Part shown: one piece after another, positions 410 to 15,501 of the stretch
Layout of the letters: each line of letters opens with the position of its first letter
Numbering within the stretch: the first letter of the stretch is position 1
Notes under the pieces: generated by a model
What the model was told of the DNA's origin: nothing
Seen by the model: only the letters and a program-made list of their open reading frames with translations
Database searches by the model: none
Assembly: GCF_017696015.1 (NCBI RefSeq)
Contig: NZ_JAAORL010000002.1
Span: forward strand, 372,001-436,000
Reading direction: 5' to 3'
DNA: 64,000 bases
Origin: Prochlorococcus marinus CUG1415
Lineage (GTDB): Bacteria > Cyanobacteriota > Cyanobacteriia > PCC-6307 > Cyanobiaceae
Translations under genes and position numbers: made by a program

Positions 410-584
410 GTATTAAAGTTGATTATATTGAAAGCTGATTTATCTTAGAAAAAGATTAGGAGATGGATGCGGATTCTTAGAAGAATTGGACGGCAGTCTC
501 CTCCTAATTACCACTTTGCATTTCTTACCAACTTATATTTCTACAGGAATTTGTGAGGTCGAATATATACTTATATCCAAAGTC

Positions 585-735
585 GATTAACCCCATACCT
601 GTATCACTTTCCTAAATAGGTACTTTGATGGATAATAAACATATAAAAAATTCTGATTCTAGCAAAATTCTAGCAGATAAATTCCTCGAGATCCCTTGAT
701 ATGACTGAAGAAAATTTTTGGCTAATGAACAATGT
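585..735 (+). repeat. Copy 1 of the EVE-gene 5' segment (truncated)
   Basis: This stretch repeats the region upstream of, and the first codons of, the EVE-domain gene at 5879. It carries CACTTTCCTAAATAGG, then ACTTTGATGGATAATAAA, then a 35-bp core at 695-729 identical to the core at 5873-5907. The core begins CTTGATATGACTGAAG and covers the start codon. Translation from the ATG at 701 gives MTEENFWLM, as in the real gene, then leaves the EVE sequence and stops at 820 after 39 residues. Homology to copy 2 begins near 585. It is a direct repeat of copies 2 and 3. The gene-free stretch 410-835 holds nothing else that I can support. Confidence 0.9.
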
Positions 736-779
736 ACCAGTAGTTATTGCAAGGGTTTTCAAAAACCAAATGAATTTCA

Positions 780-806
780 GTCACGATTCATTCACGATTT
801 TTACAG
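780..806 (+). repeat. TTCACGATT double motif, first occurrence
   Basis: The sequence reads TCACGATTCATTCACGATTT followed by TTACAG. It contains the 8-base unit TCACGATT twice, 11 bases apart (781 and 792). A near-identical element occurs at 3897-3921. Here it lies 80 bases after the ATG of EVE-segment copy 1; at the other site it lies before the ATG. Its function is unknown. A recombination or protein-binding site is possible because both occurrences are associated with truncated EVE segments and none is seen near the intact gene. Confidence 0.6.
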
Positions 807-835
807 CTAAAATTGATTGAAAAAATTTGATAATA

Positions 836-982
836 ATGGCAATTTCACACTATAGAAAGCAAAGGATAATGCTTTTAGCAAGACTCAATCTTGGTTTAGC
901 TAGTGAAGATAAAGAAGAAATTGATCTATATAATCACTATCAGAAAAATATTTATTCAGAACAACATCAACAGCAGCAATAA
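836..982 (+). CDS. Small hypothetical protein, 48 aa
   Basis: An ATG-started reading frame encodes MAISHYRKQRIMLLARLNLG, then a highly charged stretch, and ends with a Gln-rich tail. The first half looks like a basic amphipathic helix. No transmembrane segment or known domain is visible. It lies 15 bases after the stop of the truncated EVE copy 1, so the duplicated upstream region could supply its promoter. I do not recognise the family. Its well-formed start and balanced composition make it a plausible gene, but at 48 residues chance cannot be ruled out. Confidence 0.5.
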   Translation: MAISHYRKQRIMLLARLNLGLASEDKEEIDLYNHYQKNIYSEQHQQQQ

Positions 983-1058
983 AATTAATCTTTGGTAAAT
1001 TTTGATGCTGAAAATCTTATCTATATAGCTAATATATTTTCAGTACATTAATGAATAA

Positions 1059-1214
1059 ATGAATTTCGCATTTGCAAAAGTCTCAAATTTGAAAGTTAAC
1101 AGGTCTTCTAAAATAGCTATTACGCTCGCATCATCAACTTTCTTTTTATACGCATTAGGTCAAGCACCTATTTTCAAAAATATTCTTGCAGGTGCCTTTT
1201 CTTGTTCTGGCTAA
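1059..1214 (+). CDS. Small hypothetical protein, 51 aa, possible membrane segment
   Basis: The reading frame starts MNFAFAKVSNLKVNRSSKIA and continues with a hydrophobic run (about residues 21-36, then 38-47), ending SCSG. One membrane-spanning helix or a signal-like segment is likely. It is followed about 65 bases later by a good rho-independent terminator on the same strand, which supports transcription in this direction. No family is recognised. It sits in the accessory-looking region between EVE-segment copies 1 and 2. Confidence 0.45.
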   Translation: MNFAFAKVSNLKVNRSSKIAITLASSTFFLYALGQAPIFKNILAGAFSCSG

Positions 1215-1280
1215 ATACAAAACTTGTTTACAAGATAAATTGACAATCTAGAATATCCATTGATTGACAGTCGATTGCTA

Positions 1281-1305
1281 AGAGGGGCAAATGCTCCTCT
1301 TTTTT
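1281..1305 (+). terminator. Rho-independent terminator
   Basis: The stem AGAGGGGC (1281-1288), loop AAAT and stem GCTCCTCT (1293-1300) pair along all eight bases with one G-U. A T-run follows directly (1301-1305). It would end transcription of the small plus-strand genes at 836 and 1059. It sits in the gap before the convergent metallophosphoesterase operon. Confidence 0.75.
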
Positions 1306-1368
1306 ATTTTCTTTTTTGCATTACTTCAAACATACTTAAATATTGAAGTGGGTACTTGATGCTAAAAA

Positions 1369-2088
1369 CTAAAGCCTTCCAAATCCCTTAGTTCTTTTTT
1401 CTGATTTATATCCTGCTTGTACGAATTGAGTATTATCAGTCCCTACATCATAAAGAGTATAATTTTTTCCTGCCCCAATACCAATAACAGCTTTTTGCGG
1501 AACTTTCTGCTCTTTCTTACGATTTCCATTTAAATCTTCTACTTCAGAATTAACAATTCCCTCTGTCAATTCCAAATGAAACTGTTGTTTGCTCCTTGCA
1601 GTAAATAATCTGTTTACCTGAAGACGTGTAAGTCTATCAAGGAGTGTCAGTGGCGGCGTATCTAGTGTTAAATTTTCGCCAATATCTTTTGAGCTTCCGT
1701 GAATTAAACCACAATCAAGTTCAACAAATCCAAATTGAAGTGCTGCTATCCAATCAAGAAATGATTTGTCTACAGCATTCGTAAGAGACTTAACTACTTC
1801 TTCACCCTTATTTATTCTCAAAGCTTCAGCTCTTTGATCCCCACGGTAACCACTTTCCAAGAGGATTTGTTCTTCCCACCAACCGTATATACACCATGGT
1901 TGTAAATCATTACTTTTTGGATTAATTAACCTATGGAGAAGCCTATTACAGTTTTTTTCAGGACCTATCATATCCCCCAAAACAAAAAGAGTTATATTAC
2001 CTGGAGTTTTTTTTAAGTCTTTTTGAATAAGTTCATAAGTATCTAGATCCCCTTTAAGACCACTTACGAGTGCCCAGCGTTCTATCAT
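1369..2088 (-). CDS. Divergent calcineurin-like metallophosphoesterase
   Basis: This 239-residue protein resembles the phosphoesterase encoded just upstream and has the outline of the calcineurin-like fold. It shows LFVLGDMIGP at about 34-43 (GD motif), GWWEEQ at about 69-74 in the place of the usual GNHD/E, and LIHGSS near 127 (HG motif). The usual first metal motif DxH is not present; the N-terminus reads SGLKGDLD instead. No GHTH motif is seen. Hydrolase activity is therefore uncertain. The start overlaps the stop of the upstream phosphoesterase by four bases (ATGA type), indicating translational coupling in a CobW-phosphoesterase operon. No signal peptide is seen, so it is probably cytoplasmic. 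Confidence 0.7.
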   Translation of the reverse strand: MIERWALVSGLKGDLDTYELIQKDLKKTPGNITLFVLGDMIGPEKNCNRLLHRLINPKSNDLQPWCIYGWWEEQILLESGYRGDQRAEALRINKGEEVVKSLTNAVDKSFLDWIAALQFGFVELDCGLIHGSSKDIGENLTLDTPPLTLLDRLTRLQVNRLFTARSKQQFHLELTEGIVNSEVEDLNGNRKKEQKVPQKAVIGIGAGKNYTLYDVGTDNTQFVQAGYKSEKRTKGFGRL

Positions 2089-2900
2089 CTTTCACAAACA
2101 TGAGATGCATCTTCAGCTTGTTCTGCAAATTCGAATCCATTTTTTAAACGCCATGCAAAAATCGGAGGAAGACCGGCATCTATTATTGCTTTACACGTAA
2201 GTTCAAGATCATATTCCACTTCTCTAATTTTTACTTCATTTGTGACTTCGTTATAAACAACATAAGTAGCTTTAGTTCCTCCATGTCTTGGCTCTCCTAC
2301 TGAACCTGCATTTACTATTCTTCGCATCGGCAATTGAATTTCTTTTTCTTGAATATCTTTGGGAGCAGCGTTTTTGATCTTTACAGCAATTGAACCATCT
2401 GCTAATTCGCGAATATAAGGTTGATGAGTATGACCACAAAATAGAATCTCTGCTCTGGCATTTTCAACTCTCTCAAGAGCTGCAAATGCATCCATATCTG
2501 GTAAAAGATATTCATGTTGACTATTAGGACTACCATGAACAAAAAGACATTTATCTTTACGTATTGAGTAGGGTAGATTAGCTAGATAATCCTTATTTTC
2601 TTTAGTTAATTTATCCGTAGTCCATTGATGAGCAAAATGACCTCTCTTTTCAGCAAGCTGAGAAGGATAACTACAATCGCAAGCATCTAATCCATCAACA
2701 ACGTCTTCGTCCCAACATCCCTGACAAGTAGGAATTTTTTTATCTCTTATTAACTCAATAACCTCATTAGGTTGAGGACCATAACCCACTAGATCTCCAA
2801 GACAGGTAATATTTGTAATTCCTTGGAGTTCAATATCTTTTAAGACAGCCTCTACTGCAGGTAGATTTGCATGTAAACATGAGATGACAGCTTGATTCAT
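2085..2900 (-). CDS. Metallophosphoesterase (calcineurin-like, YfcE-type)
   Basis: This 271-residue protein has most calcineurin-like phosphoesterase motifs: CLGDLVGYGPQPNEV near 33-47, FVHGSPNSQHEY near 120 and CGHTHQPY near 154. Two motifs are changed. The N-terminal DxHGN is ISCLHAN (metal-ligand Asp replaced by Cys), and the expected GNHD reads GCWDED. Late Cys and His residues (THVCER at the C-terminus) and the cluster DACDCSYP add possible ligands. Metal content and substrate may therefore differ from the family norm. It begins 7 bases after the CobW-like gene ends and overlaps the next phosphoesterase, so the three form one transcription unit. Confidence 0.85.
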   Translation of the reverse strand: MNQAVISCLHANLPAVEAVLKDIELQGITNITCLGDLVGYGPQPNEVIELIRDKKIPTCQGCWDEDVVDGLDACDCSYPSQLAEKRGHFAHQWTTDKLTKENKDYLANLPYSIRKDKCLFVHGSPNSQHEYLLPDMDAFAALERVENARAEILFCGHTHQPYIRELADGSIAVKIKNAAPKDIQEKEIQLPMRRIVNAGSVGEPRHGGTKATYVVYNEVTNEVKIREVEYDLELTCKAIIDAGLPPIFAWRLKNGFEFAEQAEDASHVCER

Positions 2901-2907
2901 TTTTAAG

Positions 2908-3690
2908 TTAACGGCGAGCAGTTTGTAGTTGTGAATTTCTAAGTGAAGTTTGATGATGATCTAGTACAGCATCATTAAGAAGACAATTATGAATCGTTGA
3001 TTTTATTGACTCGAAGTTTAAATTTTTCCCTTGTATAACAATTTCAGAACATCGTTCTGGTCTTCCATTAAGAGGGGCAACTTGGTTTAATGTTTGATAT
3101 TGAGATCCTTGCTGACTGACTATCCAGTTAAACAAGATGTAACGACCATCCGGCAAGTTCATTAATGCTTTGGCTCTATATACATCCCCATAAGCACCAT
3201 TAACTAATTCAAACCAAAAAGTATTCAAGCTTGCAGGGTCCCAAATATGCTTTTTAAGATCAAGGCTTATTGATTCAATTGCTCTAAAATCTAAAGTATC
3301 TTTTATTGATAATTCTGGATCTCTACCAAAATGAAGATATCTATTTGGCTGGAGATTATATTTATCAAGTTCATTAAGAATTCTCAGATCAACTCCATTA
3401 ATACCTTGAGATTTAGGTATAAAAAATTGTGGAAATTCAATAATAATTAAACTGTTTTCTTTATCTTTCTCTGATATTGAGTTTGAAATAGATAAGTCTA
3501 ATAAGTTAGGAATTTGATCTTTCAAAAAAGCAAAATCAATTTTTGAATTTATAGCTTGCTCTAAATTAATTTCTGAATATCCTCCAAGACGTAAGTAACC
3601 ACAATTAGCAGAATAATTCTTAAAAGTATTTAGTATCCAATTTGTCTTACCGCATCCAGGCGAACCTGATATTAAACAAACTTGACTCAT
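2908..3690 (-). CDS. CobW-like (COG0523-type) P-loop GTPase
   Basis: The 260-residue protein opens with a Walker A motif GSPGCGKT (residues 9-16). Its C-terminal part reads like a CobW C-terminal domain (GDVYRAKALMNLPDGRYILF near 170-190). COG0523 proteins are G3E GTPases that act as metallochaperones or metal-homeostasis factors, often for zinc or cobalt. The usual CxCC metal-binding motif is not seen, and the protein is shorter than the usual 300-400 residues, so it is a divergent member. It is the first gene of the operon with the two phosphoesterases. A Fur-family-like palindrome lies 41 bases upstream of its ATG. Confidence 0.7.
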   Translation of the reverse strand: MSQVCLISGSPGCGKTNWILNTFKNYSANCGYLRLGGYSEINLEQAINSKIDFAFLKDQIPNLLDLSISNSISEKDKENSLIIIEFPQFFIPKSQGINGVDLRILNELDKYNLQPNRYLHFGRDPELSIKDTLDFRAIESISLDLKKHIWDPASLNTFWFELVNGAYGDVYRAKALMNLPDGRYILFNWIVSQQGSQYQTLNQVAPLNGRPERCSEIVIQGKNLNFESIKSTIHNCLLNDAVLDHHQTSLRNSQLQTARR

Positions 3691-3730
3691 AAAAAAAATA
3701 CTACCTAATGTATAAAATTTACACCAATAT

Positions 3731-3749
3731 GAAAATGAAAATCATTTCT
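3731..3749. promoter_or_regulatory. Fur-family (Fur/Zur-like) operator upstream of the CobW operon
   Basis: The 19 bases GAAAATGAAAATCATTTCT match the classical Fur-box consensus at 14 of 19 positions by hand alignment. They contain a perfect palindrome AAATGA-AAA-TCATTT centred at 3740. The site is 41-59 bases upstream of the CobW-like start. On the minus strand a possible -10 (TTATAC, about 3712-3717) lies downstream of it, so the site would cover the -35 region, as expected for a repressor. A zinc-responsive Zur is favoured over Fur because COG0523 genes are commonly Zur-regulated; this is inference. Confidence 0.5.
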
Positions 3750-3812
3750 GTATTTGTTTTTAAATATTCATTTTATGACTTAAGTGATAAAAACAATATT
3801 TTTTAGAGAATC

Positions 3813-3980
3813 AATTACCCCATAACACCCCTCACTTTCCTAAATAGGAACTTTGCAGGATAATAAATATATAAAAGCGAATAGTATGATATTACATTCA
3901 CGATTCGTTCACGATTTACAGTTTCCTCCAAATCCCTTGATATGACTGAAGAAAAGTTTTGGCTAATGAAAAGTGAGCGC
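3813..3980 (+). repeat. Copy 2 of the EVE-gene 5' segment (truncated)
   Basis: Second direct copy of the EVE upstream region and start. It contains CACTTTCCTAAATAGG and GGATAATAAA, and a core at 3936-3970 that matches copies 1 and 3 at 34 of 35 bases. After the core it keeps AAGTGAGC in common with the intact gene. The ATG at 3942 gives MTEEKFWLMKSE and then Arg-Tyr-stop (3984-3986), so it is only a 14-codon stump. Relative to copy 1 the block before the core is replaced by a segment containing the TTCACGATT element. It occupies most of the gap 3691-4042. Confidence 0.9.
3897..3921 (+). repeat. TTCACGATT double motif, second occurrence
   Basis: Two exact TTCACGATT units (3897-3905 and 3908-3916) are separated by CG and followed by TACAG. 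The element matches 780-806 except for A/G at the spacer and two extra T. It lies 21 bases before the ATG of EVE-segment copy 2, whereas at the first site it lies after the ATG. The element therefore moved or recombined independently of the EVE segment. Confidence 0.6.
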
Positions 3981-4042
3981 TACTAGCTATTACTGAGATC
4001 TAAAGGAATCGTAATTTTTTATCCCAACTTTATCCAAACTCT

Positions 4043-5644
4043 TTAAAGGCAAAATTTCTCTCCATCAGCTATTAAATAATTATCCGTAGCACATTTGATT
4101 TCATCTGATTTAATAATCAAATTAGAGGAATTATTTTTAATTTCATCCTCATTTTTCTCACCAAAATCTCTTACAGATCCATCTAAAGAACAATAATTAA
4201 AACGAGATGATCCATCTGAGAACATTTTTTTTGTAAACTCATCGCCCATTGAGATTGCTTTTTTAAATTCTTTACATGCATTGTTTGTATCTCCAAGATT
4301 ATGATTTATATAACCTTTTAGTCCATAAGCAATTGCTACTGATGGATCTTGTTGAATCAGTTTATCTAGATAATTAATGGCATCAATATTTTTATTTAGT
4401 TCAATCGAAATTTGTGATGCTTTTAATAAAGTTGCTTTATCTTTTTGATTTACTCTTAATGCTTTATCTATAGCCTCCTTAGCCTTATCTAAATTTCCAT
4501 TTTTCATAGCTTCAGTTGATCTTTCAACAAGTTTCATTGAACAAATAGAACTTTGATTTAATAATGTTTTCAAGTATCTTTTCTCTGCCATATCTTTAGT
4601 AAATGCATTAAGGTCATGGCTATAGTCTCCATTTAATGGGTCACAATATCCAGAAACTTGGAAAAATGGTTTCTCTAAAGATGGACTGAATATACGGTAA
4701 AAAAAGAAATCACCGTCGTTCTTCTCACATATTCTTACGAAAGGGTATTTTGCTGATGGGTCTTCTGATAATTCTTGATCAAAGCATTTTTCTTTTGTTC
4801 CTTCAGATGTTAAATCTTTTGTAAGTGGAATATTTGTTATAACTGAGTTTTCCTTAGTATTTCTTAAGCTGCTTGGATTAGCATTTTTGCAAAAAATTCT
4901 TATGCTCTCTTGAACTAAAGCATCACCTTTCTCTTGAGAAATCACTAAATCCAAATTACCATTAGGAACTTTTCGAGATCCTTTAGCTTTAAAATTTTTA
5001 CAATCTAAAAAAACTTCAGATAAAACTCTTTCTTCATCTTTTATTTCTATATCAAAGGTATTATCTGTTTTAAAAAAACAAAATTCAAGTTGAAATTTAT
5101 CATTATATTGACATATTCTTTTTTCCTTTAATTTTTCATTTGAATTGAGCTTTTTAGGCTTTGAGATATTTAAATTATTTGATAAATTTTTCGCACATTT
5201 ATCATTAGAAAATATGATATTTTTTTGGGTTTTTTGCCATTTTTGATTTAGAAGTTTTAATTCTTCGATATCATTTTCTAATAGAGCTAACTTTGAACCC
5301 TTTTTATTTATTTCTTCAAGTAATGGAATCATTTGATTATGATTTTTACACCAATTAGCAGAATAAAATTTATACCCTTTGCTTTTACTTTCATCCATCA
5401 GCAAGCCTAATGAATTTCCTGCTTTTCTAATTTCTGCTTTTAATTTAATTTTTTCTGATGCTTCTCCTCTTGGAAGTTGATCACATTTATTAAAGTAAAG
5501 ACATCTAGAGTATAAAAACACGTAATAAATTACTATTGAAGCTATTGATCCACCTGTTATTAATAAAATAATTAAAAACCATTTAAAGAATTTATTTAAT
5601 TTAAATTTTTTATCCTTTTTCTCTTCTGTTTTTTTACTATTCAT
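4043..5644 (-). CDS. Membrane-anchored TPR-repeat protein, unknown role
   Basis: A 533-residue protein. A Lys-rich N-terminus (residues 1-22) is followed by one strong hydrophobic helix (about 23-46), giving a single-pass anchor with most of the chain on one side. The middle is Lys/Asn-rich with many scattered Cys. About residues 370-470 form TPR-like helical pairs (AKEAIDKALRVNQKDKATLL, then AIAYGLKGYINHNLGDTNNA). No catalytic motif is seen. TPRs usually mediate protein binding. The gene lies alone between EVE-segment copies 2 and 3 and is especially AT-rich, which suggests accessory status. I recognise no family. Confidence 0.75.
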   Translation of the reverse strand: MNSKKTEEKKDKKFKLNKFFKWFLIILLITGGSIASIVIYYVFLYSRCLYFNKCDQLPRGEASEKIKLKAEIRKAGNSLGLLMDESKSKGYKFYSANWCKNHNQMIPLLEEINKKGSKLALLENDIEELKLLNQKWQKTQKNIIFSNDKCAKNLSNNLNISKPKKLNSNEKLKEKRICQYNDKFQLEFCFFKTDNTFDIEIKDEERVLSEVFLDCKNFKAKGSRKVPNGNLDLVISQEKGDALVQESIRIFCKNANPSSLRNTKENSVITNIPLTKDLTSEGTKEKCFDQELSEDPSAKYPFVRICEKNDGDFFFYRIFSPSLEKPFFQVSGYCDPLNGDYSHDLNAFTKDMAEKRYLKTLLNQSSICSMKLVERSTEAMKNGNLDKAKEAIDKALRVNQKDKATLLKASQISIELNKNIDAINYLDKLIQQDPSVAIAYGLKGYINHNLGDTNNACKEFKKAISMGDEFTKKMFSDGSSRFNYCSLDGSVRDFGEKNEDEIKNNSSNLIIKSDEIKCATDNYLIADGEKFCL

Positions 5645-5777
5645 AATTTTATATATATTTAAATATGGTTAAAAATTAAATTTAGTAAAAGATTTAGACA
5701 TCCCTTTATTTGAACATTGAAATATATTTAGAGGAAATATTTAGACCAAAGTAAAAAAAGTTAACTCAAATAAAAAT

Positions 5778-5915
5778 ACTACTTTCACAAGTAGAAACTT
5801 TGATGGATAATAAATTTATACCAAAAAAGTTTGGATAACACGTCCTCCAAGCTTAAAAATTCGCTGAGATCGCTTGATATGACTGAAGAAAATTTTTGGC
5901 TAATGAAAAGTGAGC
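5778..5915 (+). repeat. Copy 3 of the EVE-gene 5' segment (intact parent copy)
   Basis: This is the copy that leads into a complete EVE gene. It includes ACTTTGATGGATAATAAA (5797-5814) and the 35-bp core 5873-5907 covering the start codon at 5879. The gap 5645-5878 between the divergent TPR and EVE genes holds only this segment and presumably the promoters of both. GATAATAAA may contain the EVE -10 element, but no clear -35 is visible. Confidence 0.85.
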
Positions 5916-6337
5916 CTGATGCTTACAGCATAGATACCTTAAAGACTGATAGAGTAACTTTATGGGATGGTATAAGAAATTATCAAGCTAGAAATTTCAT
6001 GAGAAAAATGAATAAAGGAGATAAAGTTTTTTTCTATCATTCAAACTGCAAACCCCCAGGTATAGTTGGACTTATGGAGGTGATAGATCTAAATATTGTT
6101 GATCCTACGCAATTTGATAAAGATTCAAAGTATTTTGATCCAAAATCGAAACCTGAAAATCCTAGATGGGATTGTGTAAAAGTAAAATATATATCTAAGT
6201 CAAATAAAATTCTAAGTTTACCTGAATTAAAGATTTTATTCAGTGAGAATGAGTTATTAGTTGTGAAGAAAGGAAATAGGTTATCAATATTACCTGTCCG
6301 ACATGAGATAGCAAAAATACTACTTGAAAAAATATAA
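5879..6337 (+). CDS. EVE-domain protein (modified-nucleobase-binding PUA-like fold)
   Basis: A 152-residue single-domain EVE protein, the full family length. Diagnostic parts are FWLMKSEPDAYSID (6-19), WDGIRNYQARNFMR, GDKVFFYHSN, GIVGLMEV and PRWDCVKVKY. EVE proteins belong to the PUA-like superfamily and are known or proposed to bind modified bases in DNA or RNA; in other bacteria they often accompany modification-dependent restriction systems. The start is set at the ATG at 5879 because family similarity begins at FWLMKSEP. A TTG at 5831 would add 16 unrelated residues. Truncated copies of this 5' end occur at 585 and 3813. No restriction gene is nearby. Confidence 0.92.
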   Translation: MTEENFWLMKSEPDAYSIDTLKTDRVTLWDGIRNYQARNFMRKMNKGDKVFFYHSNCKPPGIVGLMEVIDLNIVDPTQFDKDSKYFDPKSKPENPRWDCVKVKYISKSNKILSLPELKILFSENELLVVKKGNRLSILPVRHEIAKILLEKI

Positions 6338-6344
6338 AAAATTT

Positions 6345-6596
6345 TTATTCATTAAAATTCATAGAAAACATATTCCCAATATAGAGTCTCGTTAAATCTC
6401 TATTTTGAAATCCTTTTTGCATCAAGAAACCTGCAATAGCAGCTTGTAATAACCTGTATTGATCCCAGTTAGGATGTTCTTCAACAAATTCTTTCATAGC
6501 CTTTTGAAGATTTTCTTGAAGTTCACATTTGAAACTAATGACTTCATCTTTTTGCTTTAAAACTATTGGATTTACTTTGTTATTTAACTCTTGCAT
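6345..6596 (-). CDS. DUF2811 family protein
   Basis: This 83-residue protein contains the cyanobacterial DUF2811 signature, visible as FVEEHPNWDQYRLLQAAIAG (about 37-56), followed by FLMQKGFQNRDLTRLYIGNM. It looks all-helical and soluble. Function is unknown. It is convergent with the EVE gene with only 7 bases between them, so the two transcripts probably overlap. Family assignment is from remembered pattern. Confidence 0.8.
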   Translation of the reverse strand: MQELNNKVNPIVLKQKDEVISFKCELQENLQKAMKEFVEEHPNWDQYRLLQAAIAGFLMQKGFQNRDLTRLYIGNMFSMNFNE

Positions 6597-6908
6597 GTTC
6601 AGAAAATTTTTTAAAATTTAAAACTACAAGATTTAGTTTTCTTCAAAATCACTAAATCGTCAACAAGTATGAATAAGATACGGTCTCAGAAAATAGAATA
6701 ATGAGAATATAGTTATTTCAAGGGGGTTCAAGGAACCTAATATTTGAAAAATAAATCTTACTGAAATATAAAGAATTATATAAAACAAATAGTTTTCCAC
6801 ATACTTTAGTTCATCAGCTATTTTTAAAACTTTAGTTGTGGAAAAGTTGTGAAAAATTTTTTCTGGCTAGGGGAAATATTTTAAAAAATTTCCAATTTTA
6901 TTTATCTT
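6597..6908. other. 312-base gene-free stretch with DnaA-box-like sites
   Basis: No coding frame is convincing here. Two inverted TTTTCCACA nonamers occur: TTTTCCACA at 6793-6801 and its complement TGTGGAAAA at 6837-6845, with a one-mismatch third (TGTGAAAAA, 6848-6856). TTTTCCACA is the DnaA-box form reported for Synechococcus elongatus. The surrounding DNA is very AT-rich. No dnaA or dnaN is present, so this is not evidently the replication origin. It also contains the promoter of the leftward DUF2811 gene. Confidence 0.4.
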
Positions 6909-7280
6909 TTAATCCATTGATTCCCACATTTTTTTTATTTCATAACATAAACTTTGTGCTATTGGTATCGGCCAATACATTTCAAAAGATCGCGTTTGGT
7001 CTTGACTTTCAAAAACAAATCTTAAACTCCATTCATTCTTTTTCCCTTCTAACTCAATATACCAAGGTAATTGCTCTATTTCTAAAGTAATAGCCTCCTC
7101 ATCCATTAATTCATTACTTATACTCAATATTTGTGAATTAAGTCTTAAAAGTAAAAGATATAGTGAATAAAATTCACTTCTTTGTAATTCAATTGACCAA
7201 TTATCAACCCCAATCAAGAAACAAAATTTGCCTTTTTTAAAATCTCTAAATAATCTCCATCTTTTTTGCTCTTTTAACAA
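6909..7280 (-). CDS. DUF1818 family protein
   Basis: A 123-residue protein with the layout of the small cyanobacterial DUF1818 family: KEQKRWRLFRDFKKGKFCFL near the N-terminus, GVDNWSIELQRSEFYSLYLL in the middle and MYWPIPIAQSL near the C-terminus. Its function is unknown. It lies 2 bases downstream of rpoZ on the same strand, so it is probably co-transcribed with the omega subunit. Confidence 0.85.
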   Translation of the reverse strand: MLKEQKRWRLFRDFKKGKFCFLIGVDNWSIELQRSEFYSLYLLLLRLNSQILSISNELMDEEAITLEIEQLPWYIELEGKKNEWSLRFVFESQDQTRSFEMYWPIPIAQSLCYEIKKMWESMD

Positions 7281-7282
7281 AA

Positions 7283-7519
7283 TTAACCAGGGAGCAAATC
7301 TGGTTGGTCTTGTTCATCGCTTAGTTCAATAATAGATCTTTGAACAGGTTTAATAGTTGACTCTTCTAATAGTCCATCAAAATCATCAAAACGCCTTTGT
7401 TTAGCTCTAAAAGCAATTCTTACTGTCGTCAAGTATCTATTAGTTGATTTTCTTATTAAACTCTCACCTCTTTTAGCAAGATCATTAGAATCAACAACTC
7501 TATTATTTGATATGTTCAT
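7283..7519 (-). CDS. rpoZ: RNA polymerase omega subunit
   Basis: A 78-residue omega subunit of the cyanobacterial type. The recognisable part is [20 protein letters not shown] (about 17-36), followed by [13 protein letters not shown]. Omega helps fold and recruit the large catalytic chain during polymerase assembly. The other polymerase genes in this window are far away at 52-61 kb. It is followed at once by DUF1818 and is divergent from the Hsp70-like gene. Confidence 0.9.
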
Positions 7520-7618
7520 AAAATCTTTTTTAATTTTTATTATATATTCTACAATTTATTGGCCTTATTAAAAACATAAATTACAAAACGAACTAAATTG
7601 ATTTATAAAAAGCTTTAT

Positions 7619-9187
7619 ATGGAAAAAAATTTATCTGGAACTCTTGCTATTGATTTAGGGAATACTAATACTGTAGTAGCTTTTCAGGATCAAAAAGATA
7701 TCAATTGTGTTTTAGTTGAGATACCAAATATAACATCATCTCCAGGAGTTATCCCTACAGCAGTTTGGTTCGAGGAACCTTCAAAAACTTTGAAAATTGG
7801 TATTAGTGCTTTAAAAATGAGGGATAAATCTAATGCGGATTTGTTTTTTCATTCAAATTTTAAAAGATTAATTGGAAATCCTATAGAAAAATTCAACCAA
7901 AAAAATATTTTACATCCTACTGAATGTGGCGAAAAATTTTTCAAATTTTTGTGGGCAAACATTCCTCAAACATACGAAATCAAAAGGCTTGTTTTAACTG
8001 CTCCAATTGATACATACAAGGGTTATAGAAAATGGTTAGTTAACCTTTGTGAAGAGATATCAGTAGATGAAATAGCTCTAGTTGACGAGCCTACTGCGGC
8101 AAGTTTAGGAGTTAATGTTCCATTTGGCTCCAAAATTATGACCTTAGATATTGGAGGAAGCACTATAGATATGAATATAGTCAAAATAGAAGGAGGAGAA
8201 GGAAAATCTAGCCCAATAGCTGAACTATTGAAATTTAAAGGAAATGATGTAAGCTCAATTTCAAAACAAAAACTCAGGTGTGCTGAAATAATCAGTAAAA
8301 CAGGCTCAAAAATTGGTGGTAAAGATATTGATCAATGGATAGTTGATTATTTTATTCCAGATAATAAATATGCAGTTAATCTTTTAAAGGCAGAAGAAAT
8401 AAAATGTAAACTCAGCTCATCGGCAATCGAATATGAAACTAAGTATCCAACAATATTATTAACTGAAGGAGATCAAGAAAATGAATTTTATCTTAGTAAA
8501 GAAATATTGGAGAAAATCATTATTGAGAATAATCTCCTTAATCACCTTACCTCCTTACTTAAAGATTTATTAAATGAAGCAAGAGGCAAATTTTGTACCG
8601 TAGATGATTTAAATTCAATTATTTTGGTTGGGGGTGGCACTCAAATACCATTAATCAGAGAATGGATAACACAAAACATTTCAAAAATTCAAATAAAGTC
8701 TCCTCCTCCTATTGAATCAATAGCTTTAGGAGCTTTAGCAATGACCCCAGGGGTTACTATTAAAGACATATTAAACAAAGGATTATCCATAAGATTATTT
8801 AATAAAAGAGAACAAAAACATTTCTGGCATCCTATTTTTTGTAAAGGTCAAACATGGCCAACTGATACCCCATTTCAACTGGTTCTTCAAGCTAGTAAAA
8901 ATAATCAGAAAATATTTGAAATAATTATTGGAGAAACAAAAAAAGAAAGAGAATATGATGTAATTTTTGAAAATGGATTACCAAAATTATCAGAGGTTCA
9001 AAGTGAAGAAGAAATTATTAAATGGGACAAAAATCCACTCAAAATTGAACTAAAAAATAAATCTAATCTTGGAGAAGACATCTTAAAACTTTTCTTTGAA
9101 ATTACTAAAAAAGCTGATTTATTAGTTAAGTGTTTCGATATCAAAGATGAATTTTTAGGAGAATATAATTTGGGAAATATTTTCTGA
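7619..9187 (+). CDS. Hsp70/DnaK-like protein, divergent
   Basis: A 522-residue member of the actin-like ATPase superfamily. It keeps the Hsp70 nucleotide motifs: AIDLGNTNTVVAF (about 10-22), VDEPTAASLGV (about 155), LDIGGSTIDMN (about 176) and ILVGGGTQIPLI (about 335). The C-terminal 150 residues are shorter and quite unlike the DnaK substrate-binding domain, and the acidic EEVD-like tail is missing. It is therefore an Hsp70 homologue, not the housekeeping DnaK. The ATG at 7619 is preferred to a TTG at 7598. No DnaJ or GrpE gene adjoins; a membrane J-domain protein lies at 46.3 kb. Confidence 0.8.
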   Translation: MEKNLSGTLAIDLGNTNTVVAFQDQKDINCVLVEIPNITSSPGVIPTAVWFEEPSKTLKIGISALKMRDKSNADLFFHSNFKRLIGNPIEKFNQKNILHPTECGEKFFKFLWANIPQTYEIKRLVLTAPIDTYKGYRKWLVNLCEEISVDEIALVDEPTAASLGVNVPFGSKIMTLDIGGSTIDMNIVKIEGGEGKSSPIAELLKFKGNDVSSISKQKLRCAEIISKTGSKIGGKDIDQWIVDYFIPDNKYAVNLLKAEEIKCKLSSSAIEYETKYPTILLTEGDQENEFYLSKEILEKIIIENNLLNHLTSLLKDLLNEARGKFCTVDDLNSIILVGGGTQIPLIREWITQNISKIQIKSPPPIESIALGALAMTPGVTIKDILNKGLSIRLFNKREQKHFWHPIFCKGQTWPTDTPFQLVLQASKNNQKIFEIIIGETKKEREYDVIFENGLPKLSEVQSEEEIIKWDKNPLKIELKNKSNLGEDILKLFFEITKKADLLVKCFDIKDEFLGEYNLGNIF

Positions 9188-9194
9188 ACTAAAA

Positions 9195-9731
9195 CTACTC
9201 AAGAAAAACTCCTTCTTCATTATCAATATTATTTAGACGTAAACTAATACTTTCATTCTTACTGGTTGGAACTTTTTTACCACAAAAATCAGGTTGAATA
9301 GGTAATTCTCTATGACCTCTATCTACCATTACTAACAACATCACTCTTTGAGGTCTGCCCCATGAATATAGCGCATCCATTGCAGCTCTAATTGTTCTAC
9401 CTGTATAAATAACATCATCTATCAAGAGAATTTCTTTTTTCTCAATAGGAGTTGGAATATCAGTTGCTTTTATTAGTCGAGTTCCAACTCTATTTTGATC
9501 ATCTCTATAAAAAGTTGGATCAATTATGCCTTTTCTTATTTTTAAACCTGTTTTACAGAATAATTCTTTTTCTAGAACTTCGGCAAGATCAATTCCTCTA
9601 GTAGGAATACCAACCAAAAGGAGGTTCTCTAGGTTTTTTACTTTTTCAATTATTTCGGAAGTTAAACGTGAAAGAGTTTTTCTAAGCTCTACATCAGTAA
9701 GTATTACGATCCTTTTTGTTTTATTAGGCAT
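9195..9731 (-). CDS. pyrR: PyrR: uracil phosphoribosyltransferase / pyrimidine regulator
   Basis: This 178-residue protein has the PRPP-binding motif LLIDDVIYTGRTIRAAMDAL (about 100-119), typical of PyrR, and the LVGIPTRG loop near 40. PyrR converts uracil plus PRPP to UMP and in many bacteria also binds pyr mRNA leaders as an attenuator. No pyr gene or attenuator is adjacent, so only the enzyme role is supported here. It converges on the Hsp70-like gene with 7 bases between stops. Confidence 0.92.
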   Translation of the reverse strand: MPNKTKRIVILTDVELRKTLSRLTSEIIEKVKNLENLLLVGIPTRGIDLAEVLEKELFCKTGLKIRKGIIDPTFYRDDQNRVGTRLIKATDIPTPIEKKEILLIDDVIYTGRTIRAAMDALYSWGRPQRVMLLVMVDRGHRELPIQPDFCGKKVPTSKNESISLRLNNIDNEEGVFLE

Positions 9732-9869
9732 AATTTATTAATAAATAGAATTCATTCAAAATTTTTCATAAATTAGCAAAAGCTAACTATTTTAAATATA
9801 AATTGTTAAATAGCATCTTTTAAAGCTAAATTTAAGATTGGATCACTGAACAATGAATTTGATCTAAAT

Positions 9870-11492
9870 ATGTCAAAGATTAGCAGCAAAAATATAAATA
9901 GATTAAATGTTCCTCAGAGCCCTGTAGTGCTTGCGATACTAGATGGATGGGGATATCGAGAAGATATATCCGATAATGCTATAAAAACTGCTAGTACTCC
10001 AATCATGGATTCATTATGGCATGCATATCCTCACACTCTAATAAGCGCTAGCGGCTCTGATGTAGGTCTCCCAGATGGTCAAATGGGTAATTCAGAGGTC
10101 GGGCACCTTACTATCGGTTCGGGAAGAATAATCCAACAAGAACTTGTAAGGATTTCAAATGTTGTAAAAAATAATCAGTTAGGCATAGTGAATCAGTTAA
10201 AGGAGATGGCTAATTCATTAAAGAAAAACAACTCTACTTTGCATATCACAGGATTATGTTCTGATGGAGGCGTACATAGTCATATTGATCATTTATTAGG
10301 TTTAATAAAATGGGCATCCGATAATGATATTAAAAAAGTTGCAATTCATATTATTACTGATGGAAGAGATACTCCCGCAAAAAGTGCATCTAAATATCTA
10401 AATCAAATAGATTCATGCATAAAAAAATTCAATACAGGTAAGATAGCCTCTATATGCGGAAGGTATTGGATAATGGACAGAAATCTTTTATGGGAAAGAA
10501 CAGAAAAAGCATACGCTAATTTAACTGATCCAGATATTAAACTAACAAATATTTCTCCTCAGGATTACATACAAAAAAGTTATGACAAAAATATAACTGA
10601 TGAATTTATAGAGCCCGCACGAATGTCTGAAACCTATCTTAAAGATGGGGATAGTTTAATTTGCTTTAATTTTCGTCCTGACAGAGCAAGACAAATAATC
10701 AAATCCCTTTCAATGAGTAATTTCTCAGATTTTGAAAGAAAAAATTTTCCAAATCTAGATTTAATTACTTTTACTCAATATGACACAAACTTCCCCGTTA
10801 AAGTTGCATTTCCTCCTGAATCTCTCAATAATTTTATCGGCCAAATAGTTTCCGAAAACGGACTAAAACAATACAGAACAGCAGAAACAGAAAAATATCC
10901 TCACGTAACATATTTTTTTAATGGAGGAGTAGAAATTCCTTTACCTGGAGAAGAGAGACATTTAATTCCATCTCCAAGAGTCGCAACTTATGATATGGAA
11001 CCCGAAATGTCTGCGGAAGAGTTAACTATAAGTTGTTCTAAAGCAATAAAAAGTGGAAACTATTCATTTGTTGTAATCAATTTTGCTAATCCTGATATGG
11101 TTGGTCATACAGGCAATATGAATGCAACAATTAAAGCTATAGAAACAGTAGATAAATGTATAGGTCAAATAGTTAATGCTACTGGAGAAATGGGTGGAAG
11201 CATTCTTATAACAGCTGATCATGGTAACGCAGAGGTAATGAAAGGGCCTGCAGGAGAACCATGGACGGCACACACTATAAATAAAGTTCCATTAATTTTT
11301 ATTGAGGGTGAAAAAAGAAAAATCCCAAATATGGGAAATGATATTTATTTAAGGGATAACGCTGGCTTGGCAGATATTGCACCAACTTTATTACAATTAT
11401 TGAATCTCCCAATTCCAAAAGAAATGACAGGCAAATCTCTAATTAAAGAAATCGAGTTAAAAGGTTATAATAAGGTCGTACAACACGTCTAA
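9870..11492 (+). CDS. gpmI: 2,3-bisphosphoglycerate-independent phosphoglycerate mutase
   Basis: A full-length (540-residue) two-domain iPGM of the alkaline phosphatase superfamily, interconverting 3- and 2-phosphoglycerate using Mn ions. Visible motifs are [11 protein letters not shown] near 22 (metal Asp), [14 protein letters not shown] near 73 (the phosphorylated Ser), [12 protein letters not shown] near 163, [10 protein letters not shown] near 271, [10 protein letters not shown] near 408 and [11 protein letters not shown] near 449 (late metal ligands). It is followed 27 bases later by secG on the same strand. Confidence 0.97.
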
Positions 11493-11519
11493 AGTAAATA
11501 CAAGCTTTTTATTTAAGCA

Positions 11520-11747
11520 ATGGTTCAATTTTTTAGTTGGTTATGGGTTCTTTCAGGAGTTCTTCTAATACTTTTAGTTTTACTTCATAGTCCCAAAGGT
11601 GATGGAATGGGAGGCATCGCAGCCAGTGGAAGCTCAATGTTCAATAGCGCAAGTAGTGCAGAAGCATCTCTCAACAAAATAACTTGGACTTTTTTAAGTA
11701 TATTTTTGTCTCTCGCAATTATTCTGAGTGCTGGCTGGATTTCATAA
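11520..11747 (+). CDS. secG: Preprotein translocase subunit SecG
   Basis: A 75-residue inner membrane protein with two hydrophobic helices (about 5-22 and 54-72). Between them is the conserved loop LLHSPKGDGMGGIAASGSSM, diagnostic of SecG. SecG associates with SecYE and stimulates protein export. It is probably co-transcribed with gpmI and is convergent with groEL, the two separated by a strong hairpin. Confidence 0.93.
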   Translation: MVQFFSWLWVLSGVLLILLVLLHSPKGDGMGGIAASGSSMFNSASSAEASLNKITWTFLSIFLSLAIILSAGWIS

Positions 11748-11756
11748 GTTTTACAT

Positions 11757-11784
11757 TAAAAAAGGGATCATTTAAAATGATCCC
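11757..11784 (-). terminator. Rho-independent terminator of groES-groEL
   Basis: A perfect palindrome, GGGATCATTT (11764-11773) and AAATGATCCC (11775-11784), folds into a hairpin of eight or more pairs. On the minus strand it is followed by a run of seven T (11763-11757), so it ends the groESL transcript 37 bases after the groEL stop. On the plus strand there is no T-run, so it would end secG transcripts less well. Confidence 0.85.
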
Positions 11785-11820
11785 GCAAATTAAAAAGTTA
11801 AACTATTAACTACTTTTAAG

Positions 11821-13485
<1,665 letters not shown>

Positions 13486-13509
13486 TTAATAATTTTTGAA
13501 ACAAACATT

Positions 13510-13821
13510 TTAGCTTACAACAGCTAAAATATCTTTTTCTGAGAGCAAGACATATTCATCTCCTCCCAATTTAATGTCTGTTCCAGCATATTTGCTGTAC
13601 AAGACTTTATCGCCAATACTCACTTCTGGAGTTTGTCGAGAGCCATCGTCATTTAGTTTCCCAGGGCCTACCTGAGCAACTTCTCCTACTTGTGGTTTTT
13701 CTTTAGCTGAATCAGGCAAAAGGATGCCCCCAGCAGTTTTTTCCTCAGATTCGGAAACTTTAATAAATATTCTATCTCCCAGTGGTTTTACTGTAGAGAC
13801 TGTAAGTGAAACAGCTGCCAT
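13510..13821 (-). CDS. groS: 10-kDa co-chaperonin GroES
   Basis: A 103-residue co-chaperonin that caps GroEL. It shows [20 protein letters not shown] (12-31) with the mobile loop [18 protein letters not shown], and [17 protein letters not shown] near the end. It is the first gene of groESL. I found no CIRCE inverted repeat (TTAGCACTC...GAGTGCTAA) in the 219 bases upstream, so regulation by HrcA is not supported. Confidence 0.97.

Positions 13822-15501
<1,680 letters not shown>

Follow-up and report, generated by a model that had tools for sequence, protein, structure and literature searches.

Cassettes that probably accumulate by site-specific recombination at the 5′ end of an EVE-domain gene in Prochlorococcus

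Why is the start of a single gene repeated upstream of it, in one orientation, with different genes lying between the copies? The question arises at a locus of Prochlorococcus marinus CUG1415, in a window of 64,000 nucleotides (C2:372001-436000, where C2 denotes the contig NZ_JAAORL010000002.1), in which copies of a 35-bp core spanning the start codon of an EVE-domain gene alternate with cargo genes. A preliminary description of this DNA proposed successive insertions at the 5′ end of the gene, each resupplying the target. That model is now supported by cores lying on one strand, by varied cargo, by breakpoints within the cores, by matched cassette ends and by exchange of the EVE 5′ end. We consider it very likely that the locus is an additive array of non-autonomous cassettes and that site-specific recombination assembled it at a single point within the EVE 5′ end.

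Within the window, the core was verified on the plus strand at 695-729, 3936-3970 and 5873-5907. Copies 1 and 3 are identical, copy 2 differs by a single base, and copies 2 and 3 have AAGTGAGC in common past the core. The first two copies lead only into stumps of 39 and 14 codons, and the intact EVE open reading frame (ORF; 152 amino acids) begins at the third. The similarity noted upstream of the copies is real as well, covering 583-648, 3811-3876 and 5758-5823, with the latter two blocks 79% and 65% identical to the first. The preliminary description was right about three plus-strand copies in the window but too modest about the whole, since these are the right-hand end of a series of about 12 plus-strand cores upstream of EVE. 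Each cassette of this series extends from just past one TGGCTAATGAA to the end of the next. Its left end has two iterons and is followed by the cargo; the right end has one or two iterons, and after these come the upstream region, the start codon and the opening EVE codons, as far as the exchange centre. The features are as follows (window positions unless prefixed by C2):

C2:354672, 360086, 363246, 364488, 367027, 370041 and 370961, plus strand: cores to the left of the window
C2:372696, 375937 and 377874, plus strand: the cores in the window
583..729, plus strand: right end of the left-hand cassette with core copy 1, comprising the upstream block 583-648 and the EVE start codons
657-664 and 668-675, plus strand: iterons TTCTAGCA in an 11-bp step, within 583..729
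719-729, plus strand: exchange centre 1, TGGCTAATGAA, inside core copy 1
730..3970, plus strand: cassette 1, 3241 bp, from the base after centre 1 to the end of centre 2
~730-805, plus strand: left end of cassette 1, with iterons TCACGATT at 781-788 and 792-799
1369..2088, minus strand: cassette 1 cargo ORF, 239 amino acids, without a Pfam match at 0.01, phosphoesterase-type by inspection
2085..2900, minus strand: cassette 1 cargo ORF, 271 amino acids, calcineurin-like metallophosphoesterase (PF12850)
2908..3690, minus strand: cassette 1 cargo ORF, 260 amino acids, CobW C-terminal domain (PF07683), barely above the cut-off
~3811-3970, plus strand: right end of cassette 1, with iterons TCACGATT at 3898-3905 and 3909-3916
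3936..3970, plus strand: core copy 2 with the 14-codon stump, exchange centre at 3960-3970
3971..5907, plus strand: cassette 2, 1937 bp, with left end AAGTGAGCGCTACTAGCTATTACTGAGATC
4020-4029 and 4031-4040, plus strand: left iterons of cassette 2, TATCCCAACT and TATCCAAACT, pattern TATCC[AC]AACT, 11 bp apart
4043..5644, minus strand: cassette 2 cargo ORF, 533 amino acids, TPR protein with an N-terminal hydrophobic stretch, by inspection
5828-5837, plus strand: right end of cassette 2, inverted iteron AGTTTGGATA, the inverse of TATCC[AC]AACT
5873..5907, plus strand: core copy 3, junction of cassette 2 with the intact EVE body, exchange centre at 5897-5907
5879..6337, plus strand: intact EVE-domain gene, 152 amino acids from ATG (PF01878, 1.1e-52), target and right border of the array

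Each of the two cassettes in the window carries a single iteron class at its two ends. The exchange centre falls in the EVE codons for WLMKSEP, which we take to be a signature of EVE proteins; if so, this would account for its use as a constant target, as with tRNA genes.

A genome-wide search for the core, named as a check in the preliminary description, showed that the series runs leftwards beyond the window, to about 23 kb upstream of EVE. At up to three mismatches, the core pattern occurs six times on the plus strand of the genome and never on the minus strand, and a reversed-pattern control gave no match, so the repetition is not due to chance. When the limits are loosened, the series spans C2:354672 to 377874, on one strand throughout. 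The upstream motif has seven matches genome-wide (up to three mismatches), every one on the plus strand of this array. One of them is exact and stands at C2:354672, although the core there has 7-8 mismatches. A further core, of type C, lies 16836 bp upstream of EVE, and two cores at 28.7 and 31.1 kb (7 and 8 mismatches) may be chance matches.

The point of exchange could be delimited from pairs of sites that share the left but not the right end, and the reverse, which confine it to the 11 bp of TGGCTAATGAA. This centre lies inside an imperfect inverted repeat, clearest in the form TACTGGCT-N11-AGCCAGTA, an arrangement that would be expected for a tyrosine recombinase; the flanking iterons presumably resemble the arm-type sites of integrases. 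Past the centre, three positions are conserved across five left-end families and EVE: of 53 stump cores (up to four edits), 45 have G at +4, 49 have C at +7 and 51 have G at +10, and among 21 EVE genes the corresponding counts are 21, 21 and 18. A wider palindrome around the core, seen by eye, varies between left-end families and was not built on.

We sorted the iterons by eye into nine sequence classes, some of which may be variants of each other, and asked whether a cassette carries the same class at both ends. This is the case in about half of the classable cassettes: among the 46 of 61 cassettes classed at both ends, 24 match, against 10.8 expected and no more than 21 in any of 20,000 permutations. 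The classes that flank a single core agree in 9 of 40 cases, where 9.6 are expected. The repeats thus belong to the cassettes, and the cores are seams between different cassettes.

If cassettes are units of movement, they should recur whole in different surroundings. Among 56 core-to-core cassettes, five families (F1 to F5) are common to several genomes, with more than 70% coverage both ways. The cargo between cores varies among strains, a comparison that the preliminary description had proposed, and the core is present in other strains; neither uniform cargo nor a core confined to this strain, the two outcomes it had named as contrary to its model, was found. Family F1 adjoins EVE at loci L062, L065 and L068 and stands sixth from EVE at L050, while F5 occupies three different ranks at L064, L068 and L069. 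From centre to centre, the F1 copies of four genomes are 99.3-99.8% identical and the F5 copies 99.3-99.5%. In the same genome pairs, the EVE bodies are 84-96% identical and the 1.4-kb downstream flank 84-93%, and for both families identity drops at TGGCTAATGAA on both sides. Whole cassettes of F1 and F5 have passed between species, at different array ranks. The CobW/phosphoesterase cassette of the window, which the preliminary description cautioned did not look foreign, belongs to F1, with about 97% identity over 78% of its length; its version is longer (3212 bp, compared with 2590-2592 bp) and has an extra left part with its own iterons. Given its relatives in four genomes, 99.3-99.8% identical from core to core and found at two ranks, that caution does not stand.

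We assigned the 87 distinct EVE genes (from 103 loci) to 5′ types by simple rules, using four labels of which one is a remainder, and on a quick tree of the gene bodies the type changes at least 31 times. EVE bodies that are 98.6% identical can have unrelated 5′ regions (45% identity over 75 bp), and genes whose bodies are only 84% identical can agree in all 75 bp around the start. By sequence comparison, the EVE 5′ end has been exchanged many times and independently of the gene body.

Under the mechanism that we propose, insertion at the centre would split EVE and leave an upstream stump behind, and the EVE body would receive the upstream region and first codons of the cassette, so that the gene would stay whole. 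Later cassettes would enter existing cores, and the array would grow in one orientation. The enzyme would be a tyrosine recombinase that acts in trans; possible means of transfer between cells are transduction, vesicles and DNA uptake.

The arrangement extends well beyond one strain. EVE is present in 170 of 200 genomes of the genus, from which we took 20, picked for long contigs and not for repeats, and analysed about 17.5 kb upstream of EVE; with the array described above, this gave 21 arrays. They contain 82 cores on the EVE strand and none on the other (up to 8 mismatches in 29), counting 21 that are the start of EVE itself and five with 7-8 mismatches. A second detector found at least one extra core (up to six edits) in 17 of the 21. 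Numbers differ between genomes: within 17.5 kb and up to six mismatches, there are three extra cores in G041, one in G015 and none in G171 or G108. Unrelated 5′ ends, beginning with ATGACTGAAGAAAATTTT, ATGACTGAACCTAACTAC, CAACAGGAACCTAGCTAC or ATGACTGAAATAAACTAC, each lead into TGGCTAATGAA. The core-to-core cassettes have a median length of 2775 bp (n=59, range 676-14727), mostly 1-5 kb, and the longest may conceal lost cores. If G015 corresponds to strain MED4, its EVE gene would be placed at the end of genomic island 5, which PMC2518516 ties to phosphorus and light stress; one Hli-like motif was seen about 17 kb upstream of EVE.

Across the family, 61 of 251 genomes, belonging to 28 of 59 genera, contain the exact core pattern, and all of them are listed at 2.0 Mb or less. 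These figures include genomes with a single exact match, which may be EVE itself; two or more occur in 36 of the 251 genomes and 18 of the 59 genera (our own count from the listing). The eight larger genomes that we checked and in which the core pattern is lacking also have EVE; the absence is to be taken softly, since the pattern was built for low-GC codons. Some draft genomes match on both strands, on different, unordered contigs. Ten genomes from other genera contributed 13 loci upstream of EVE, with 63 cores on the EVE strand.

Several further features of the CUG1415 genome were noted. An orphan left end with iterons lies outside the EVE array at C1:354429 (minus strand; L200), beside a zinc-binding transport-type gene; with its core TCAAATGTGATGAAAAGTG and decayed right end, it is likely a secondary insertion. 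One long segment of the array contains, within C2:357638-359315, a fragment resembling the tRNA 3′ end of L216 (at L007:12638-12693) and a decayed piece of a tyrosine recombinase (at L007:13971-14315), as if a tRNA-site element had once entered. ARAGORN reported no tRNA genes in the array, L007 or L008, where only the tRNA-end-like fragment was seen. A 44-nt repeat like ATTGACAGTCGATCTAACATGGAGGGATAAAACCCTCTTTT, with a terminator-like hairpin, occurs at L008:4599, 5326, 10152, 11632 and 13263, near genes and left ends; it has no Rfam match, and no Rfam family was found in the array at gathering scores. PADLOC gave two weak matches among ten proteins of the array.

A number of observations weigh against an array built by site-specific insertion. 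The right ends of F2, F3 and F4 are exchanged or diverged in some pairs. The 31 changes of EVE 5′ type fall below every one of 200 shuffles (mean 40.1, range 33-46), so some signal of descent is left, though turnover is fast. In the test of cassette ends, 22 of the 46 classed cassettes lack matching ends, 15 others were dropped for want of a class, the commonest class makes up half of the matches, and related cassettes (F1, F4) are treated as independent; the size of the effect is thus less certain than its direction. With EVE itself excluded, the relation between core decay and distance from the gene is weak (rho 0.20, p 0.13) and does not establish the sequence in which cassettes were inserted. 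The ten genomes of other genera also have four cores on the opposite strand, three with seven edits and one with three. The latter (L203:4742, on the plus strand with EVE on the minus), about 2.9 kb upstream of EVE, breaks the one-strand rule and is possibly an inverted insertion or a rearrangement. In genome G250, a good EVE-type core at C1:71455-71483 (plus strand) lies far from the EVE array (1.66 Mb, minus strand), possibly at another secondary site. Matches to PF00589 or PF00239 were absent next to EVE in the array genomes searched (21 for each, 20 in common, with CUG1415 searched in addition for PF00589). By tblastn with 13 queries (nine tyrosine recombinases, two resolvases and two small array ORFs) against 156 array loci (1.61 Mb), we found no complete recombinase, although one unlike the queries would escape. 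No excised circle or pair of occupied and empty sites was seen in the assemblies.

Homologous recombination alone is one alternative: the repeated 100-220 bp at the cores would serve as RecA crossover points after DNA uptake or transduction, with no site-specific enzyme acting now. In its favour, similarity between cores of one right-end type can extend over about 220 bp at 61-87% identity, F2 and F4 include cassettes with swapped right ends, and no resident recombinase was found in the arrays. But the flanks of the F1 and F5 sites are unrelated save for some 11-30 bp in most pairs, EVE body and 5′ end part company even where bodies are 98.6% identical, and matched iterons at the two ends of a cassette need a maker. 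We therefore regard homologous recombination as an improbable sole cause, although it may add later shuffling. Far less credible still is the suggestion, raised in the preliminary description, of partial gene duplication or a mobile promoter or leader, in which only the EVE 5′ end is copied and the cargo is unrelated. The repeated unit does equal an upstream region plus start codons, but the cargo travels with its core and both ends, and the several unrelated 5′ ends imply that the copies are not duplicates of one gene. Core-to-core cassettes common to different species contradict both versions.

With site-specific insertion as the preferred explanation, it remains to ask which enzyme performs it. 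Since no complete recombinase was found in the array DNA searched, the enzyme probably acts in trans. The only recombinase matches of the tblastn search were the decayed fragment in the CUG1415 array and a false one, rejected because it sits inside an ABC-F-like gene. One candidate, compatible with the preferred explanation, is a 389-amino-acid tyrosine recombinase encoded beside hemH, a core gene of the family that would serve like the integrase of a chromosomal integron. PDB and Pfam assign it no further than tyrosine recombinase, and it has a long N-terminal part, with about 100 residues ahead of the core-binding-like part. A PF00589 match with a frame of 389-404 amino acids (taken as this gene by its length) was found in CUG1415 and in 21 of 21 genomes, where other matches come and go, and in seven genomes with extra EVE cores it is the sole PF00589 match (G119, G127, G146, G184, G039, G015 and G059). 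Yet 60 of 71 family genomes carry the gene, including larger-genome genera without the core pattern; a single enzyme fits some nine iteron classes poorly; no core or iteron pair lies near the gene; and a resolvase (serine recombinase) match of about 220 amino acids is just as constant, in 21 of 21 genomes, in 19 of them 86-90 kb from EVE on the same contig. We think this enzyme less likely than not to be the one. In CUG1415, a resolvase-type match lies at C2:467142-467552, about 89 kb downstream of EVE.

Somewhat better placed, though still a tentative proposal about the enzyme, are recombinases of visiting mobile elements (tRNA-site islands and phages), acting in trans with one for each iteron class. 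The variety of classes fits this proposal, as do the several types of tyrosine recombinase in some genomes (six matches in G049, for example) and the decayed recombinase and L216-like tRNA-end fragments inside the CUG1415 array. Against it, the surroundings of further tyrosine recombinase genes (L011, L215-L220), some of them at tRNA ends, showed no iteron pair and no core save two 11-mers with one mismatch. Viral contigs, too, yielded only one convincing core, on a contig that may be chimeric. The region L011 (C1:366585-373507) holds an integrase beside tRNA-Thr, a cytosine methyltransferase-like gene and three more large ORFs, and looks like a tRNA-site defence island.

The viral contig in question, L070 (IMGVR_UViG_3300006334_000917), came from scans with exact patterns or short peptide patterns, which distant forms escape, and carries its core together with a left end. 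Its T4-like cyanophage genes (UvsX, DnaB-like helicase and MazG) follow 1.1 kb of host-like DNA (1-1095), of which 370-1085 is 97% identical to the CUG1415 array and includes a core, a left end, iterons and the same cupin gene. The contig comes either from a phage that carries a cassette or from a chimeric assembly. In L198, from the same metagenome, the same cupin gene is joined within the gene to phage-like DNA; because L198 looks like an assembly chimera, we keep L070 as a lead only. Core matches in six other viral contigs were judged from their flanks to be chance, and a named phage collection contained no similar DNA or protein, with at most five weak matches (E 0.2 or worse).

How does such an array compare with known systems? 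In chromosomal integrons, numerous small cassettes that are not autonomous share one orientation, carry a single recombination site each and are served by an integrase in trans. The EVE cassettes resemble these in being small, non-autonomous and unidirectional, with a single site each and an enzyme needed in trans. Unlike an integron, the array has no integrase gene beside it (PF00589, 21 genomes; tblastn, 156 loci), its site is the coding start of a gene, and it ends in EVE and not in attI. In a crude test without a chance control, GTTRRRY/RYYYAAC motifs within 35 bp were present at only 7 of the 82 cores. Cis-mobilizable elements lack a recombinase, are bounded by tandem att sites and are mobilised by a partner element. 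The EVE cassettes share with them att-like flanking sites and, as far as searched, the lack of a recombinase; no autonomous partner element was found at the site. We know of no cis-mobilizable elements that form long arrays across numerous genera, with a variety of iteron classes and without an autonomous partner. Terms for such elements and for accretion at att sites occur in PMC5704250 and PMC7563491.

The closest parallel is the additive flexible genomic island, represented by the tRNA-Lys island of Ca. Methylopumilus with its recurring 20-bp tRNA ends (PMC10872708). There as here, a fragment of the target gene is repeated through changing cargo, by successive insertions at one site: the EVE fragments lie in one orientation between differing cargo, and insert boundaries fall at TGGCTAATGAA (F1 and F5). 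Unlike in the tRNA-Lys island, the target is the 5′ end of a protein gene, which we propose is re-started by each insertion, and some cassettes have matched iteron ends and can be traced whole between species. Insertion of islands and prophages in the 5′ end of dusA (PMC4482086) likewise represents site-specific insertion at the 5′ end of a conserved protein gene; those islands have their own integrase gene, whereas none was found in EVE cassettes, which are mostly 1-5 kb. Tycheposons are described (PMC10872708) as Prochlorococcus islands that border on a tRNA gene and encode a tyrosine recombinase. The EVE arrays are similarly cargo islands of Prochlorococcus at a fixed chromosomal site, but they differ from that account in having no border tRNA gene (CUG1415 array, L007 and L008) and no complete tyrosine recombinase. 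With a protein gene's 5′ end as target, this site-specific additive island would thus be a new form of the known successive-insertion islands. Searching for the EVE domain or DUF55 together with Prochlorococcus gave no related literature by title; subscription papers are poorly covered by such a search, and we do not claim that the system is unpublished.

The described route to the variable islands of streamlined cyanobacteria is by tRNA-site elements with their own recombinase. The EVE locus represents a second route, one that uses a protein gene; of the 59 family genera sampled, 18 have at least two cores. Insertion of this kind would account for both the building of a variable genome island and its sharing between species, and it predicts the boundaries of the moving units, readable base by base. 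It would also provide an attachment site and natural cassettes for a group that is hard to engineer, and the question of the island-building enzyme becomes testable at the bench with short DNA substrates. A bolder possibility, which we put forward tentatively, is that Prochlorococcus has a cassette-capture system of its own, integron-like in behaviour but made of unrelated parts, with a conserved EVE coding motif as docking site, where one or more recombinases in trans, perhaps the 389-amino-acid enzyme, would dock cassettes and release them. If this is true, the docking gene would be re-started by each cassette from a shared pool, and the system would be a main builder of the variable island of streamlined marine cyanobacteria.

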